From: Terriglobia bacterium
Lineage (GTDB): Bacteria; Acidobacteriota; Terriglobia; Acidiferrales; UBA7541
Reading direction: 5' to 3'
Assembly: GCA_020073485.1 (NCBI GenBank)
Contig: JAIQFB010000024.1
Span: forward strand, 1-64,000
DNA: 64,000 nucleotides
Shown: in pieces, positions 5,482 to 11,642 of the stretch
Layout: each line of letters begins with the position of its first letter
Position numbering within the stretch: the first letter of the stretch is position 1
Notes under the pieces: model-generated
Seen by the model: the letters and a program-made list of their open reading frames with translations, nothing else
The model's database searches: none
What the model was told of the DNA's origin: nothing
Translations under genes and position numbers: made by a program

Positions 5482-6120
5482 AAATTTCTCCCCTGACATT
5501 TTAGGCCATCCGAAACCGGGACGGCGTCAACCCTTCTCAGATTCTTTGGGACACGATTCGGCTTACCGGATCTTCTTCCGCGCATCGATTTTGCTTGATT
5601 AGATCGCAATGGATGTGCGCTGTGTCACCGCTCAATGTGACGCGTGCCGTCGCGCTCACAGGGCCGCAAAGTCCACAGACTTGTCGCCGAAAAGCAAGAT
5701 CGAAGCAAAATCGCATGCGAAAGGACGGTGCCCGGTCGAAGTATGCGTTTTTCTTGGGGAGGTGGCGCGCCGAAGGCAACGGGAATGAAACGGCTTGCCT
5801 ACCTGGGGATTGATTGGAGCCAAGTCCTGATAAACGGTCTTCTTGGAAACTGGGAATTTCACCGGATTCCGACGACCCGATCCGGGAGTATCAAGCACTT
5901 CGGGACAAGAATCACTAAGACCCGTGACGGGTGTCACAGAACATTCTTGGTCCGCAAGTTAAATAAAATCCCAATCAGTTCCTCACAACAAGGAGCGGGG
6001 CCGGATACTGGGATATTCGGCCCTTCTTTATTTATTTCAAGCGGTCCGGTGCGCGAGGAGCGTATTCAGCCCGATAAACGGCCTATCGAAAACTGGCCCG
6101 CCACCGTCAAAACACCGCCC
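5482..6120. other. Intergenic stretch between the catabolic genes and the polymerase cassette
   Basis: No gene is supported. From 5820 there is a copy of the CCAAGTCCTGATAAACGG repeat that recurs at 47.9, 52.8, 54.7 and 55.0 kb. DNA shared with the acidobacterial part therefore begins by 5820 at the latest. Short frames here have no recognisable protein features. Confidence 0.4.
5820..5860 (+). repeat. Dispersed repeat family 1, copy A (left arm only)
   Basis: It begins CCAAGTCCTGATAAACGG and continues with TCTTCTTGGAAACTGGGAA, a diverged match to the left arm of the complete hairpin at 52792-52873. No right arm is visible nearby. Confidence 0.65.
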
Positions 6121-6149
6121 TTGATATTCGCCTTTTATTCGCCTATAGT
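6121..6149 (+). promoter_or_regulatory. Sigma70-like promoter with an 11-bp-period direct repeat
   Basis: TTGATA (6121-6126), a 17-base spacer and TATAGT (6144-6149) form a near-ideal promoter 45 bases before the RecA-like gene. The spacer holds two copies of TATTCGCC (6125-6132 and 6136-6143), exactly 11 bases apart, so both lie on one face of the helix and overlap the -35 and -10 regions. The layout ATTC-N7-ATTC mirrors the direct-repeat LexA box of Alphaproteobacteria (GTTC-N7-GTTC). LexA control is inference; another repressor could read the repeat. Confidence 0.6.
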
Positions 6150-6193
6150 GGACTTCGATCGAGACGCACCCCCGAGGAGCGCGCCCCATAGCC

Positions 6194-6949
6194 ATGGCTT
6201 CAGACCCCATCCCGGCTGCACTGGCCACTCGCCGTTCCCCGACAGCAACTCGGAGAGGCCTCGCCATCACCGTCCCGCCCGGATCGAACGCCGCGGCATC
6301 CGCGGGAGCGCGCTCCGCTGCGGCGGATGCCCCTGATCTGGCCGCGCCGCCTCCCGCACCGCGTCCCTGGGCGCTGCCGCCGCGCGGCCTGGCGCTGTTT
6401 TACGGCCGCCCGGAGACGCCGCGCCTGTTCCATTATTTTCTGCCGCGCCTGCTGGCCGAAGGCAAGCAGGTGCTGTGTCTGGACGGCGCCAACCGCTTCG
6501 ATCCGCTGCTGATCGCCCGCCTGGCGCGGCAGCGGGGCATCGCCCCGGCGGATTTCAACCGCGCAATCCGCGTCGCGCGCGCCTTCACCTGTTTTCAGCT
6601 GACCGAATTGCTGGCGCGCGTCCCGCGCCTGCTGGAAAAATTCTCCGCCGACGCCCTGCTGGTCACCGCGCTGCCCGATCTCTACTTCGACGAGGACGTG
6701 CGCGAGCGCGACGCCGCCGTGGCCTTTGGCCACGCCCTGCACGCCCTGCGCGCGCTCGCCCCATTGCCGCTGGCCGTCGCGGTCTTTTCCGACGCCACGT
6801 CCTTTGAAACCCCGCGCCGCGCCATGTTCGCGCAACTCGCCGCGCAAGCGAGCGAACTCTGGCGTTTCGCCCTAGATGCCGAAACCGCCCAACTGCGTCT
6901 GACGGGCGAGAAGAGGGAAGACAGGTTGCAGGTGATGGGTAACAGATAG
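6194..6949 (+). CDS. RecA/RadA-fold protein of a PolB cassette, P-loop degenerate
   Basis: This 251-residue protein has a low-complexity Ala/Pro-rich N-terminus (about 1-60) and then a RecA-like core. LFYGRPETPRLF at 69-80 stands where Walker A should be but lacks GK[ST]. VLCLDGANRFDPLLIARLA (93-111) and VARAFTCFQLTELL (127-140) are hallmarks of RadA/Rad51-like accessory proteins. DALLVTALPDLYFDEDV (about 154-170) occupies the Walker B region. It is first in the cassette with the small protein at 7180 and the polymerase at 7607. It is probably a catalytically dead recombinase paralogue that loads or positions the polymerase, comparable in role to ImuA. Its start is supported by position only; GAGGAG lies rather far upstream. 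Confidence 0.7.
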   Translation: MASDPIPAALATRRSPTATRRGLAITVPPGSNAAASAGARSAAADAPDLAAPPPAPRPWALPPRGLALFYGRPETPRLFHYFLPRLLAEGKQVLCLDGANRFDPLLIARLARQRGIAPADFNRAIRVARAFTCFQLTELLARVPRLLEKFSADALLVTALPDLYFDEDVRERDAAVAFGHALHALRALAPLPLAVAVFSDATSFETPRRAMFAQLAAQASELWRFALDAETAQLRLTGEKREDRLQVMGNR

Positions 6950-7179: not shown

Positions 7180-7830
7180 ATGGGCCGCACGCTTCCCACA
7201 TTCCGCCAGCTGATCGACGACGCCATCGCGCGCTGGTCGAAATTCCGCCGAGCCCTGCGCCGCGAGGACCAGGAATATTTCGACCGCCTGTTTCGCCGCG
7301 TGCGTTCCTACACCCAGGCGGCCACCTACCAGGCCAGCGACAACCCCATGGAAGCCATCCTGCTCTCCATCGCCCTCGATCAGGAAAAGCGCTTGGACGT
7401 CCTGGAGCGCACCGTGCACCTGCCGGAACTGTCTGTGGGCTCTACTTTTACGCTCGACGCCCGGACGCAGCTGGAGCCCGGCAGCCCGCCCGAAGCGATT
7501 GTGGACTGTACTTTTACGCTGCACGCTTCCAGTGAAGCGTGCAGCCCACTAGAAACGGGTGTGGGCTCTACTTGGAGCCCACCTGAAGAATATTTGGAGC
7601 AATTCGATGTCCCTCGAAGCACTGATAAAAATGAGCACCCCGGCACGCATCCTCAGCCGGACCCCAGCCAGCAACTCAACCCAGTCCAGCGGCCCAACCC
7701 CGGCCGCCAGCGCCACACCCGCCAGCAGTCGGACACAACTGCATGGCTGGATTTTCGATCTCTACCCGAGCCCGCACGGGATGAAGCTGTGGCTGATAGA
7801 GCCGAACCAAAAACGCCACCAGCTGATTGA
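7180..7830 (+). CDS. Small cassette protein resembling haloarchaeal DUF8156
   Basis: The first about 80 residues look conserved: MGRTLPTFRQLIDDAIARW, then FRRALRREDQEYFDRLFRRV, DNPMEAILLSIALDQEKRLD and VLERT. From memory this closely resembles the short haloarchaeal family DUF8156 (MGRTNPTFRD.., YRRALR..DQ..FD.LF), whose function is unknown. Residues from about 84 on are repeat-derived: VGSTFTL, VDCTFTL and VGSTWSP are three in-frame copies of one DNA repeat, followed by Pro/Gln-rich sequence. The frame runs 224 bases past the polymerase start at 7607. The functional protein may be only the N-terminal part, with a tail created by repeat insertion. It probably acts with the polymerase. Confidence 0.6.
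   Translation: MGRTLPTFRQLIDDAIARWSKFRRALRREDQEYFDRLFRRVRSYTQAATYQASDNPMEAILLSIALDQEKRLDVLERTVHLPELSVGSTFTLDARTQLEPGSPPEAIVDCTFTLHASSEACSPLETGVGSTWSPPEEYLEQFDVPRSTDKNEHPGTHPQPDPSQQLNPVQRPNPGRQRHTRQQSDTTAWLDFRSLPEPARDEAVADRAEPKTPPAD
7435..7582 (+). repeat. Triplicated repeat with perfect hairpins inside coding sequence
   Basis: GTGGGCTCTACTTTTACGCT at 7435 recurs at 7501 with two changes and, truncated, at 7561. The steps of 66 and 60 bases preserve the reading frame. A perfect 12-bp stem with a CAGT loop (GCTGCACGCTTC / GAAGCGTGCAGC) spans 7518-7545, and an 8-bp stem (GTGGGCTC / GAGCCCAC) spans 7561-7582. The element sits at the end of the small gene, just before the polymerase start. Confidence 0.75.
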
Positions 7831-9988
7831 CCGCTTCGCGCCCGTTTTTTACGCGTCCGGCCCGGACGCCGTGCTGCGCCGCCTGCGCGAAGCCATCGCC
7901 CGCCAGCCGCACGCTCTCTCGTGCCGCCACACCGAGCGCATCGATCTGTGGCAGCCCGCTTTCGCCGCGAACGACGGGGCGAAAGCAGGCCTGTGCCCGG
8001 TCCTCGAAATCGAAGTCGCCCGCGCCAGCGAATATTCCTCCTGGACGCGCTGGGTACGCCAGTTTGACGCCTCGCTGCGTCTCTACAACAGCGACCTCAT
8101 GCTCGCCTCCATGTACTGCTGGCAGCGCAACATTTTTCCGCTGGCTCGCGTCGATGCCGAAGTCGATGCCGAGGGCCGCGTCCTCGCCCTCGAATGCTGC
8201 GACACCGAATGGGCCCTCGACTACGAACTCCCGCCGCTCGAAATCCTGCGCATACGCCTCGGCGGACACCGCCGCATCGATCCCACGCACGGCGCCGCCT
8301 TTGGGCAAGGCGCCGCCCTCGAAATCGAAGTGGACGGCCGCGAATTCGAGCTCGACGAATCCGGCGAGCCCGCCGCCGTCGCCTTCCAGCACCTGCTCGC
8401 GCGCCACGATCCCGACCTGATCCTCAGCGACTGGGGCGACGCCACCATCCTCCCGCGCATCTCCGAACAGGCCGCGCGCCTGCGCCTGCCCCTCACGCTC
8501 AACCGCGATCCCGACGCCATCGTCCACCAGAGCCGCGCGCGCAGCTTCATGAGCTACGGCCGCATCCTGTTCAAAAACAGCGCCATCACCCTGTGCGGCC
8601 GCCTGCACGTCGACACGCAGAATTCCTTCATCGCCGATAAATGCGATCTCTCCGGACTCTGGGAACTTGCGCGCGTCACCAAGCTCCCCGTGCAGTACGC
8701 CTCGCGCACCTCCACCGGCACGGGCATCTCCTACATGCAGATGGAACTCGCCTGGCGCGATGGCGTCCTCATCCCCGAACAAAAAGCCGAGCCCGAGGAT
8801 CCCAAGCCGCCCGACGAACTCCTCCTCGCCGACCGCGGCGGCTTGGTCTTCACTCCCAAAATCGGTTTCCATGCCAACGTCGTCGAGCTGGATTTCGTCA
8901 GCGAATATCCCAGCATCATGGCGCGCTTCAACATCTCTCCCGAAACGATCAACTGCCCGTGCTGTCCCGGCGCTCCGCGCGTCCCCGAACTCGGCTACCG
9001 CGTCTGCCAGCGCCGCCGCGGCATCACCAGCCGCGTAGTCGAACGCCTCATCGCCAAGCGCACCGAACTGAAGCAGCGGCTGCGCGATGCGGAGAAAGAA
9101 ACAGCGGCGCGATTGAAACTCCAGCGCGACGCCCTCAAATGGCTCCTGGTCTGCTGCTTCGGTTACACCGGCTATAAAAACGCGCGCTTCGGAAAAATCG
9201 AGGCGCACGAAGCCATCAACGCCGTCGCCCGCGAAACGCTCCTGGTCGCCAAGGAACTGGCCGAGGACCGCGGCTACGAAATCCTGCACGCCCTGGTCGA
9301 TTCTCTTTACGTGCGCAAACCGGGAGCCGCGCGCGCCGATTTTGAATCGCTCACCGAAGAAATCGCCGCCCGCACCGGCCTCCCGCTCGCGATCGAAGCC
9401 GTCTATCGTTACGTCGTGTTCCTGCCGTCCCGGCAATTCGCCGACGTCCCGGTGCCCAACCGTTTTTTCGCCGTCGCCGAAGACGGCGCCCTGAAAGTGC
9501 GCGGCCTCGAGTTGCGCCGCCATGACACCCCGCCGCTCATCGCGCGCATGCAGCAGGAAGCCCTCGACATCGTCGCCGAAGCGCACGATTTCCCCAGCTA
9601 CGCCGCAAAGCTGGAAGAAGCCCGCGAACTCCTGCGCCGCTATGAAGAATCGCTGGCCGACGGCAGCGTGGCCATCGAGGACTTGATCGTCAGCAAGCGC
9701 CTCACTCGCGAGCCCCGCGAATACAGCAAAGCCAATCAGACCGCCATCGCCGCGCAGCAATTGCTGGGCAGCGGCGTGCGCCTGCGCCCCGGCCAGACCG
9801 TCGAATACATCATCACCGACGCCCGCAACCGCGTCCCCAACGACCGCGTCCGCGCCTACGCCCTCTGGGACGGCTGGTTCGGCTACGACCGCCGCAAATA
9901 CACCGAACTCCTCCGCGACGCCTTCGAGCCCCTCGCGCTCTGTGTCGCTGAGCAAGCCCCTCCTCGCACACGCAAAATCCTAAAATGA
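7607..9988 (+). CDS. Family-B DNA polymerase with decayed exonuclease (PolB2/Dpo2-like)
   Basis: A 793-residue family-B DNA polymerase. Motif A is DFVSEYPSIMARF with the metal-binding Asp429. Motif B is KWLLVCCFGYTGYKNARFG starting at Lys511, with Cys replacing the usual N/S. Motif C is HALVDSLYV with Asp565; the first Asp of canonical DTDS is replaced but the catalytic one is kept. Between A and B lies a CPCC..C cluster that could bind metal. The N-terminal 3'-5' exonuclease region is present but lacks DxE (LEILRIRL where FDIE is expected) and exo II (PDLILSDWGDAT), so proofreading is predicted lost. The ATG at 7607 is preferred; GTG 7559 lies inside the repeat and ATG 7631 is also possible. 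Family-B polymerases are uncommon in bacteria. A damage-tolerance role is likely. Confidence 0.85.
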   Translation: MSLEALIKMSTPARILSRTPASNSTQSSGPTPAASATPASSRTQLHGWIFDLYPSPHGMKLWLIEPNQKRHQLIDRFAPVFYASGPDAVLRRLREAIARQPHALSCRHTERIDLWQPAFAANDGAKAGLCPVLEIEVARASEYSSWTRWVRQFDASLRLYNSDLMLASMYCWQRNIFPLARVDAEVDAEGRVLALECCDTEWALDYELPPLEILRIRLGGHRRIDPTHGAAFGQGAALEIEVDGREFELDESGEPAAVAFQHLLARHDPDLILSDWGDATILPRISEQAARLRLPLTLNRDPDAIVHQSRARSFMSYGRILFKNSAITLCGRLHVDTQNSFIADKCDLSGLWELARVTKLPVQYASRTSTGTGISYMQMELAWRDGVLIPEQKAEPEDPKPPDELLLADRGGLVFTPKIGFHANVVELDFVSEYPSIMARFNISPETINCPCCPGAPRVPELGYRVCQRRRGITSRVVERLIAKRTELKQRLRDAEKETAARLKLQRDALKWLLVCCFGYTGYKNARFGKIEAHEAINAVARETLLVAKELAEDRGYEILHALVDSLYVRKPGAARADFESLTEEIAARTGLPLAIEAVYRYVVFLPSRQFADVPVPNRFFAVAEDGALKVRGLELRRHDTPPLIARMQQEALDIVAEAHDFPSYAAKLEEARELLRRYEESLADGSVAIEDLIVSKRLTREPREYSKANQTAIAAQQLLGSGVRLRPGQTVEYIITDARNRVPNDRVRAYALWDGWFGYDRRKYTELLRDAFEPLALCVAEQAPPRTRKILK

Positions 9989-10352: not shown

Positions 10353-11642
10353 ATGGGAGAAGCCGAAGCGCTAACGCTTGTGAGGCGGGCCGCACGCAGT
10401 GTGTGGGTCATTGCATTCGCCTGTGTCGCCTTCCTCGGCCTGGGCCACTTCTTGCGCCAGCTCAACATCATCCTGAATCCGCTGGCCTGGTCTGCCGCGG
10501 AGATCATCGCGGCCCTGCTATGCTTCACCATCGCCGCCAACGTTCTGGTGCGCGATCACGGCACCGGAAACCGCGTTTCGCTCCTGCTAGGCCTCACCTT
10601 CGGCATCACCGGCATCATCCACTTGGGAGCGATCTTCGAGTTCTACCACGATTTCGCGAAACACTCGGAGCAGCTCCGCATCCCGCTCTCCTGGATGACG
10701 GGCCAGACGCTTCTGGGCCTGCTCTTTCTGGCTGCCTACGCCATCAACAAGCACCTCCCGTGGCCCCGGGGTCCCAGAAAAAATATCTTTGCCGTCCTCG
10801 CCACCGTCGTCGCCACCCTGTGCCTGATCACCATCGTGCTCCTGCTGTTTCCCAACGAGCCGCCCATTCACCCTCATAGCGCCATCCCGCGCGCCTGGGA
10901 TTTGCTTCCCGCCGCTGTCTTTCTGGCCGCCGCATTTGTCCTGAACCGCAGGACCGATCACGACCGCCTCGCCTTTGACGCCGTCCTGGTCTGGGTCGCC
11001 GGACTCAATGCGGCCGGCCACCTGATCGCTTCGCAATCCTCCCACTTGCTGGATGCCGCCGCCGGCGGCGCCGTGCTGCTCAACACCATCAGCTACCTGA
11101 TCCTTCTCGGCGCCACGCTGCTCGACAACGTCCAAATCTTCCGCCAGGTCCGCATCCTGGCCATCAGCGACAGCCTCACCGGCCTCGCCAATTACCGCCG
11201 ATTGGTCGACGTCCTGCAATCCGAACTCGAACGCTCGGGACGCACCAACCGCTCCTTTTCCGTCCTGCTGATGGACCTCGACGGCCTCAAGCGCATCAAC
11301 GACAAATACGGCCACCTGGCCGGAAGCCAGGCACTGTGCCGCGTCGCTTCCATCCTGCGCCTGAATTGCCGCTCGATCGACACCGCCGCGCGCTACGGCG
11401 GCGATGAATTCGCCCTCGTCCTCCCCGAAACAAAGGAATACGCCGCCCAGCAAGTCGCCGAACGCATCCGCAACTGCCTGCTCGCGGACCAGGAAGCCCC
11501 CCGTCTCAGCCTGAGCGTCGGCATCGCCACGTTCCCCCAATGCGGCTCCACCGTCCAGCAGTTGCTCGAACACGCCGACCGCGTCCTCTACGAAATGAAA
11601 AGCGAATCCAAAGGCCGCCGCGCCCAAAATTACGGCCGGTAG
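10353..11642 (+). CDS. Membrane diguanylate cyclase (GGDEF)
   Basis: A 429-residue protein with about seven to eight hydrophobic segments in residues 15-265, then a GGDEF domain. The active-site motif YGGDEF ends at residue 353 and is intact. RSID at 340-343 stands five residues before it and matches the inhibitory I-site (RxxD), so product feedback is expected. DSLTGLANYRRL, opening the domain, and LLMDLDGLKRINDKYGH, binding GTP and metal, are also standard. It makes cyclic di-GMP from two GTP. The membrane part resembles MASE-type sensors, but its signal is unknown. No EAL domain is present. Confidence 0.88.
   Translation: MGEAEALTLVRRAARSVWVIAFACVAFLGLGHFLRQLNIILNPLAWSAAEIIAALLCFTIAANVLVRDHGTGNRVSLLLGLTFGITGIIHLGAIFEFYHDFAKHSEQLRIPLSWMTGQTLLGLLFLAAYAINKHLPWPRGPRKNIFAVLATVVATLCLITIVLLLFPNEPPIHPHSAIPRAWDLLPAAVFLAAAFVLNRRTDHDRLAFDAVLVWVAGLNAAGHLIASQSSHLLDAAAGGAVLLNTISYLILLGATLLDNVQIFRQVRILAISDSLTGLANYRRLVDVLQSELERSGRTNRSFSVLLMDLDGLKRINDKYGHLAGSQALCRVASILRLNCRSIDTAARYGGDEFALVLPETKEYAAQQVAERIRNCLLADQEAPRLSLSVGIATFPQCGSTVQQLLEHADRVLYEMKSESKGRRAQNYGR

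Follow-up and report, generated by a model that had tools for sequence, protein, structure and literature searches.

A conserved TTCGC direct repeat as the predicted LexA operator of the iRadA-PPB2-PolB2 mutasome operon in Acidobacteriota

Introduction

The promoter of a three-gene cassette ending in a B-family DNA polymerase carries a short direct repeat between its -35 and -10 hexamers, which raises the question of whether a regulator reads this repeat and, if so, whether the polymerase belongs to the SOS response. Bacterial PolB2 has long been called inactive. In Escherichia coli, Pol II (polB) is an SOS-inducible B-family polymerase, and the ImuA-ImuB-DnaE2 cassette is an SOS-controlled mutagenesis cassette that combines an inactive RecA-fold partner with an error-prone polymerase. 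The LexA box of the Alphaproteobacteria, GTTC-N7-GTTC, is a direct repeat found at the promoters of lexA, recA, and the mutagenesis cassette. A sequence-only reading of the window (the whole 64,000-nucleotide stretch of DNA analyzed here) had likened the repeat to this box, as ATTC-N7-ATTC, and suggested that the cassette would then fall under the SOS or a related damage response. In published cases, bacterial PolB2 has been tied to the SOS response through a neighboring lexA (PMC11791011; PMC4104785), and iRadA-PPB2-PolB2 is the only operon order known in bacteria (PMC11791011). Among the archaea, Sulfolobus PolB2/Dpo2 is reported to be damage-inducible (PMC7390963).

Results

The repeat and its promoter

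The sequence TATTCGCC occurs exactly at 6125–6132 and again at 6136–6143, a period of 11, and the resulting arrangement TATTCGCC-TTT-TATTCGCC (6125–6143) occupies the 17-bp spacer of a sigma-70-type promoter, TTGATA-17-TATAGT at 6121–6149 (10/12 match; positions 6120–6149 read CTTGATATTCGCCTTTTATTCGCCTATAGT). The description of a repeat set one helical turn apart between a good -35 and a good -10 is therefore borne out. A pattern scan of 5900–6250 returned this promoter-like site as its single match, with 0.2 expected (Table 1). Taken alone the repeat is unremarkable, as 8-mer repeats at a lag of 11 number 2 in the 64-kb window against 1.3 expected, and ATTC-N7-ATTC was rejected as a motif because its frequency there is that of chance (2 matches vs. 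2.3 expected). A hairpin resembling a terminator, followed by a T-rich tail, lies ~100 bp ahead of the promoter (5997–6024) and possibly insulates the cassette against upstream transcription.

Table 1. Coordinates of the promoter, putative operator, and genes of the cassette
Feature	Position in window	Strand	Basis
-35 hexamer TTGATA	6121–6126	+	pattern scan; relatives keep TTGAC
Putative LexA operator core TTCGC-CTTTTA-TTCGC	6127–6142	+	repeat, genome matches, conservation in relatives
-10 hexamer TATAGT	6144–6149	+	pattern scan; 17-bp spacer
iRadA-like gene, first of cassette	6194–6949	+	operon position and published description
PPB2-like small helical subunit	7180–7830	+	diagnostic N-terminal MGRT (PMC11791011)
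PolB2-type B-family DNA polymerase	7646–9988	+	open frame from 7559, homology from 7646

The cassette

The cassette corresponds to the PolB2 mutasome operon already known from bacteria, and the order iRadA-PPB2-PolB2 is present in the window and in all 17 relative loci for which the PolB2 sequence was reached. The iRadA-like protein has an inactive RadA/RecA fold without a GKT/GKS P-loop at YGRPETPRL, and a search against Pfam and NCBIfam gave no match; assignment of this gene as ImuA was rejected, as it matched no family model and iRadA better fits the operon order and the published description. The N-terminal MGRT of PPB2 is shared by the window (7180) and 12 relative loci. The polymerase is closest to archaeal B-family enzymes and its motif C reads LVDSL, such that the first Asp of DxD is lost and the distal one kept; the same first Asp is replaced in 9/9 aligned PolB2 sequences, while the distal Asp (D552) is invariant. 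The lexA of this genome is on another contig than the cassette. In agreement with published work, the PolB2 cassette of Nitrospirota and several other phyla is immediately preceded by lexA (L227, L230, L231, L243, L253, and L267, among others). A gene for a MASE3-GGDEF diguanylate cyclase follows the window cassette on the same strand after ~360 bp (10353–11642).

The box in its own genome

Within the 5.05-Mb genome, a draft of 46 contigs, TTCGCNTTTTNTTCGC has 5 exact copies where a first-order Markov model predicts 0.16 (P about 9e-7; the genome-wide statistics are pattern searches set against a Markov expectation), and the background rate is 0.0085 sites with at most one mismatch per 250 bp. 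One-mismatch boxes lie just upstream of recA (TTTGCTTTTTCTTCGC, C7:75611) and of the only convincing lexA (TTCGCTTTTACTTCGC, C7:83465). Other good boxes precede a Hrq1/MrfA-like DEAD helicase, a PA0069/Rv2578c-like radical SAM gene (two boxes), Pol IV, a DinB-superfamily gene, and a lysozyme-like protein, and several of the box-bearing genes serve typical SOS functions. Lists compiled at 2–3 mismatches were discarded as mostly noise (88 matches vs. 72 for the reversed pattern), and matches within coding sequence (L030, L031, and L034) or at L026 and L033 were taken as chance.

Conservation in relatives

Orthologous genes from up to 60 related genomes, which a scan of named genomes placed in the Acidobacteriota (Terriglobia), were examined for the box in their upstream DNA; a match was defined as TTCGC-N6-TTCGC half-sites carrying at most one mismatch at a spacing of N6. 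Absence of the repeat upstream of orthologous cassettes, lexA, and recA would have counted against the sequence-only reading, but all three carry the box: in 19/19 relatives for the polymerase cassettes (upstream of iRadA), 30/30 for lexA (29/30 by scan, the thirtieth being a locus clipped by a contig end where the box is present), and 22/25 for recA. At recA the box takes a constant variant with TTTGC as its first half-site, and the three genomes without it belong to one genus, g5 (L134, L135, and L138). The Hrq1/MrfA-like helicase carries the box in 19/19 relatives (16/16 by scan and a further 3 at clipped loci, where the boxes are exact). The spacing of the site is fixed, with spacings of 2 to 13 other than N6 matching at 0–6 loci per set and inverted half-sites at N6 matching at 0–1.

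A wider, mostly class-level set of lexA genes gave the box in 18/20; family f5 has divergent LexA proteins, and its member L128 is without the box. The independent scan of named genomes recovered it in 13/14 acidobacterial PolB2 loci with upstream DNA, and the gp2 cassette L211 had no match at up to 2 mismatches. Upstream of Pol IV the box is kept only within the genus (4/30), and this gene was rejected as a conserved target beyond it. Among individual loci, L072 was rejected as an orthologous cassette (23% identity, adjoining a divergent lexA), L078 is cut by a contig end, and L068 has no match from its gene start, with an exact box in the same gene region of L220.

The recognition helix of LexA and the half-site

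The LexA of this genome can be aligned over its full length with LexA proteins of known structure, and inspection of its sequence shows AAG where cleavage is expected, together with the Ser (GSSM) and Lys (TLKRY) positions. Helices were compared among lexA genes from other classes and from two Sumerlaeota genomes. The half-site covaries with the recognition helix: a TTCGC-type direct repeat accompanies 14/15 ATVHKH helices and 0/16 other helices, a difference (Fisher P 6e-8) that is uncorrected for ancestry, and since related genomes are non-independent samples, the binomial and Fisher values overstate the evidence. Some LexA proteins with SLNAxxKH-like helices have TTCAC-N6-TTCAC at lexA, and those with SAAGIxDH have no direct repeat there.

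At individual loci, TTCAC-N6-TTCAC lies upstream of lexA in L164, L166, L177, and L182, from other acidobacterial families, whose non-ATVHKH helices end in KH. The lexA promoters of family f13 (L159, L161, and L170; helix SAAGIxDH) contain a palindrome-like TACCGTAA...TTCGGTA. In the Sumerlaeota (L255, L265, L337, and L338), the PolB2 cassettes carry TTTCGCTTTTATTTCGCC, and lexA has TTCRC-type direct repeats and an identical SLATVHKH helix, a likeness that would reflect either common ancestry or a transferred regulatory code.

Discussion

Because the comparison upstream of cassettes, lexA, and recA came out in favor of the SOS assignment, we read the repeat as very probably the operator through which LexA controls the iRadA-PPB2-PolB2 mutasome genes, with LexA binding and damage induction inferred from sequence. 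The earlier placement of the cassette under the SOS response is supported in the same way by the box at lexA, recA, the helicase, and orthologous cassettes, and induction by damage would follow as a prediction. A LexA dimer would contact the two TTCGC half-sites from one face of the helix within the -35/-10 spacer, and RNA polymerase would be excluded while LexA covers the spacer. DNA damage would then activate RecA, leading to RecA-stimulated self-cleavage of LexA and to derepression of the operon jointly with recA, lexA, and the Hrq1/MrfA-like helicase, after which the PolB2 complex may perform error-prone translesion synthesis.

The conserved sequence could instead represent a strong promoter, consisting of a spacer and an extended -10, that is common to damage genes. 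Such a reading draws on the lexA and cassette promoters, where the box fills the spacer between -35 and -10 with CTAtaa following it, but sigma-70 spacers are normally without sequence conservation and the box is independent of promoter position. At the helicase promoters the box is inverted (in all but one locus) and nearly always comes immediately after a CTAG-type element resembling a -10, and because it is both inverted and outside the promoter spacer there, we do not regard it as a promoter element. The sequence downstream of the recA box also differs and the box changes along with the LexA recognition helix, which together leave the promoter explanation very unlikely.

It is also conceivable that the site is read by a different damage-responsive regulator, one that the promoters of lexA, recA, and the cassette have in common, as LexA-independent damage regulons exist, for example under the WYL activators of mycobacteria (PMC10693628). 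Such a regulator would have to account for a site at lexA itself in all 30 relatives, in the classical position for autoregulation, and for half-site letters that track the LexA helix (ATVHKH with TTCGC, SLNAxxKH-like with TTCAC, and SAAGIxDH with no direct repeat), and we consider it very unlikely as well. A repeat that arose by chance and regulates nothing would fit its unexceptional frequency, when taken by itself, in 64 kb, but its place and spacing are kept at every one of the 19 orthologous cassettes; conservation has already refuted this explanation, and its probability is negligible.

With the repeat read as a LexA operator, its nearest formal counterpart is the alphaproteobacterial LexA box, which is likewise a direct repeat with an 11-bp period at lexA, recA, and a mutagenesis cassette. 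That part of the original comparison stands, whereas the half-site does not: here it is TTCGC with a T-rich middle, in the phylum Acidobacteriota (class Terriglobia), and not GTTC or ATTC. Conservation does not extend to the G of GTTC, the commonest letter at position -1 being A (37%; the logo was built from sites chosen by pattern) and the window having ATTC, such that the box falls outside the GTTC-N7-GTTC motif despite equal 11-bp geometry. The Balneolaeota motif TTACACATATTTTWTACATA, supported by gel shift, is also a direct-repeat LexA motif outside the Alphaproteobacteria, with a half-site that differs from TTCGC, and LexA sites of the direct-repeat kind have evolved on more than one occasion (PMC7739468).

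The cassette shares with the published PolB2 mutasome operons its three genes and their order, the MGRT of PPB2, and the replaced first Asp of DxD, but where the SOS link in those operons is a neighboring lexA, here it is a predicted operator acting in trans. The likeness to ImuA-ImuB-DnaE2 extends to the inferred SOS control, the inactive RecA-fold partner, and a polymerase predicted to be error-prone; unlike that cassette, the second gene is PPB2-like and the third a B-family PolB2, with no DnaE2 or ImuB. E. coli Pol II is similarly a B-family polymerase and is SOS-inducible, as PolB2 is predicted to be, but the PolB2 of the window is closest to archaeal enzymes, has a degenerate DxD, and is accompanied by two partner genes.

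By 2021, 17 LexA motifs had been reported from many phyla (PMC8565304). A search of the open-access literature found no published LexA motif for the Acidobacteriota. On balance, it appears likely that much of the Acidobacteriota, and the Sumerlaeota with them, use an undescribed LexA code in which S[L/A]ATVHKH reads TTCGC-N6-TTCGC, with a sister code of TTCAC-N6-TTCAC for SLNAxxKH-like helices, inverted sites in one family, and an archaeal-derived PolB2 mutasome under SOS control in trans. The motif can readily be used to predict SOS genes in a phylum that is abundant in soil, and provides direct sequence evidence consistent with bacterial PolB2 acting as an SOS polymerase even without a neighboring lexA. 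The paired changes in helix and half-site make the way in which LexA alters its code directly testable.

In this genome, the PA0069/Rv2578c-like radical SAM gene has two inverted boxes ~15 bp apart (C45:241402–241448; L024/L025), one of them inside its TTGACA/AATACT promoter spacer, and the enzyme is possibly under strong SOS control. An exact box (C28:197047–197062; L023) lies just upstream of the gene for a small lysozyme-like (SLT) protein with a hydrophobic N-terminus, which would be unusual as an SOS-controlled cell-wall enzyme.
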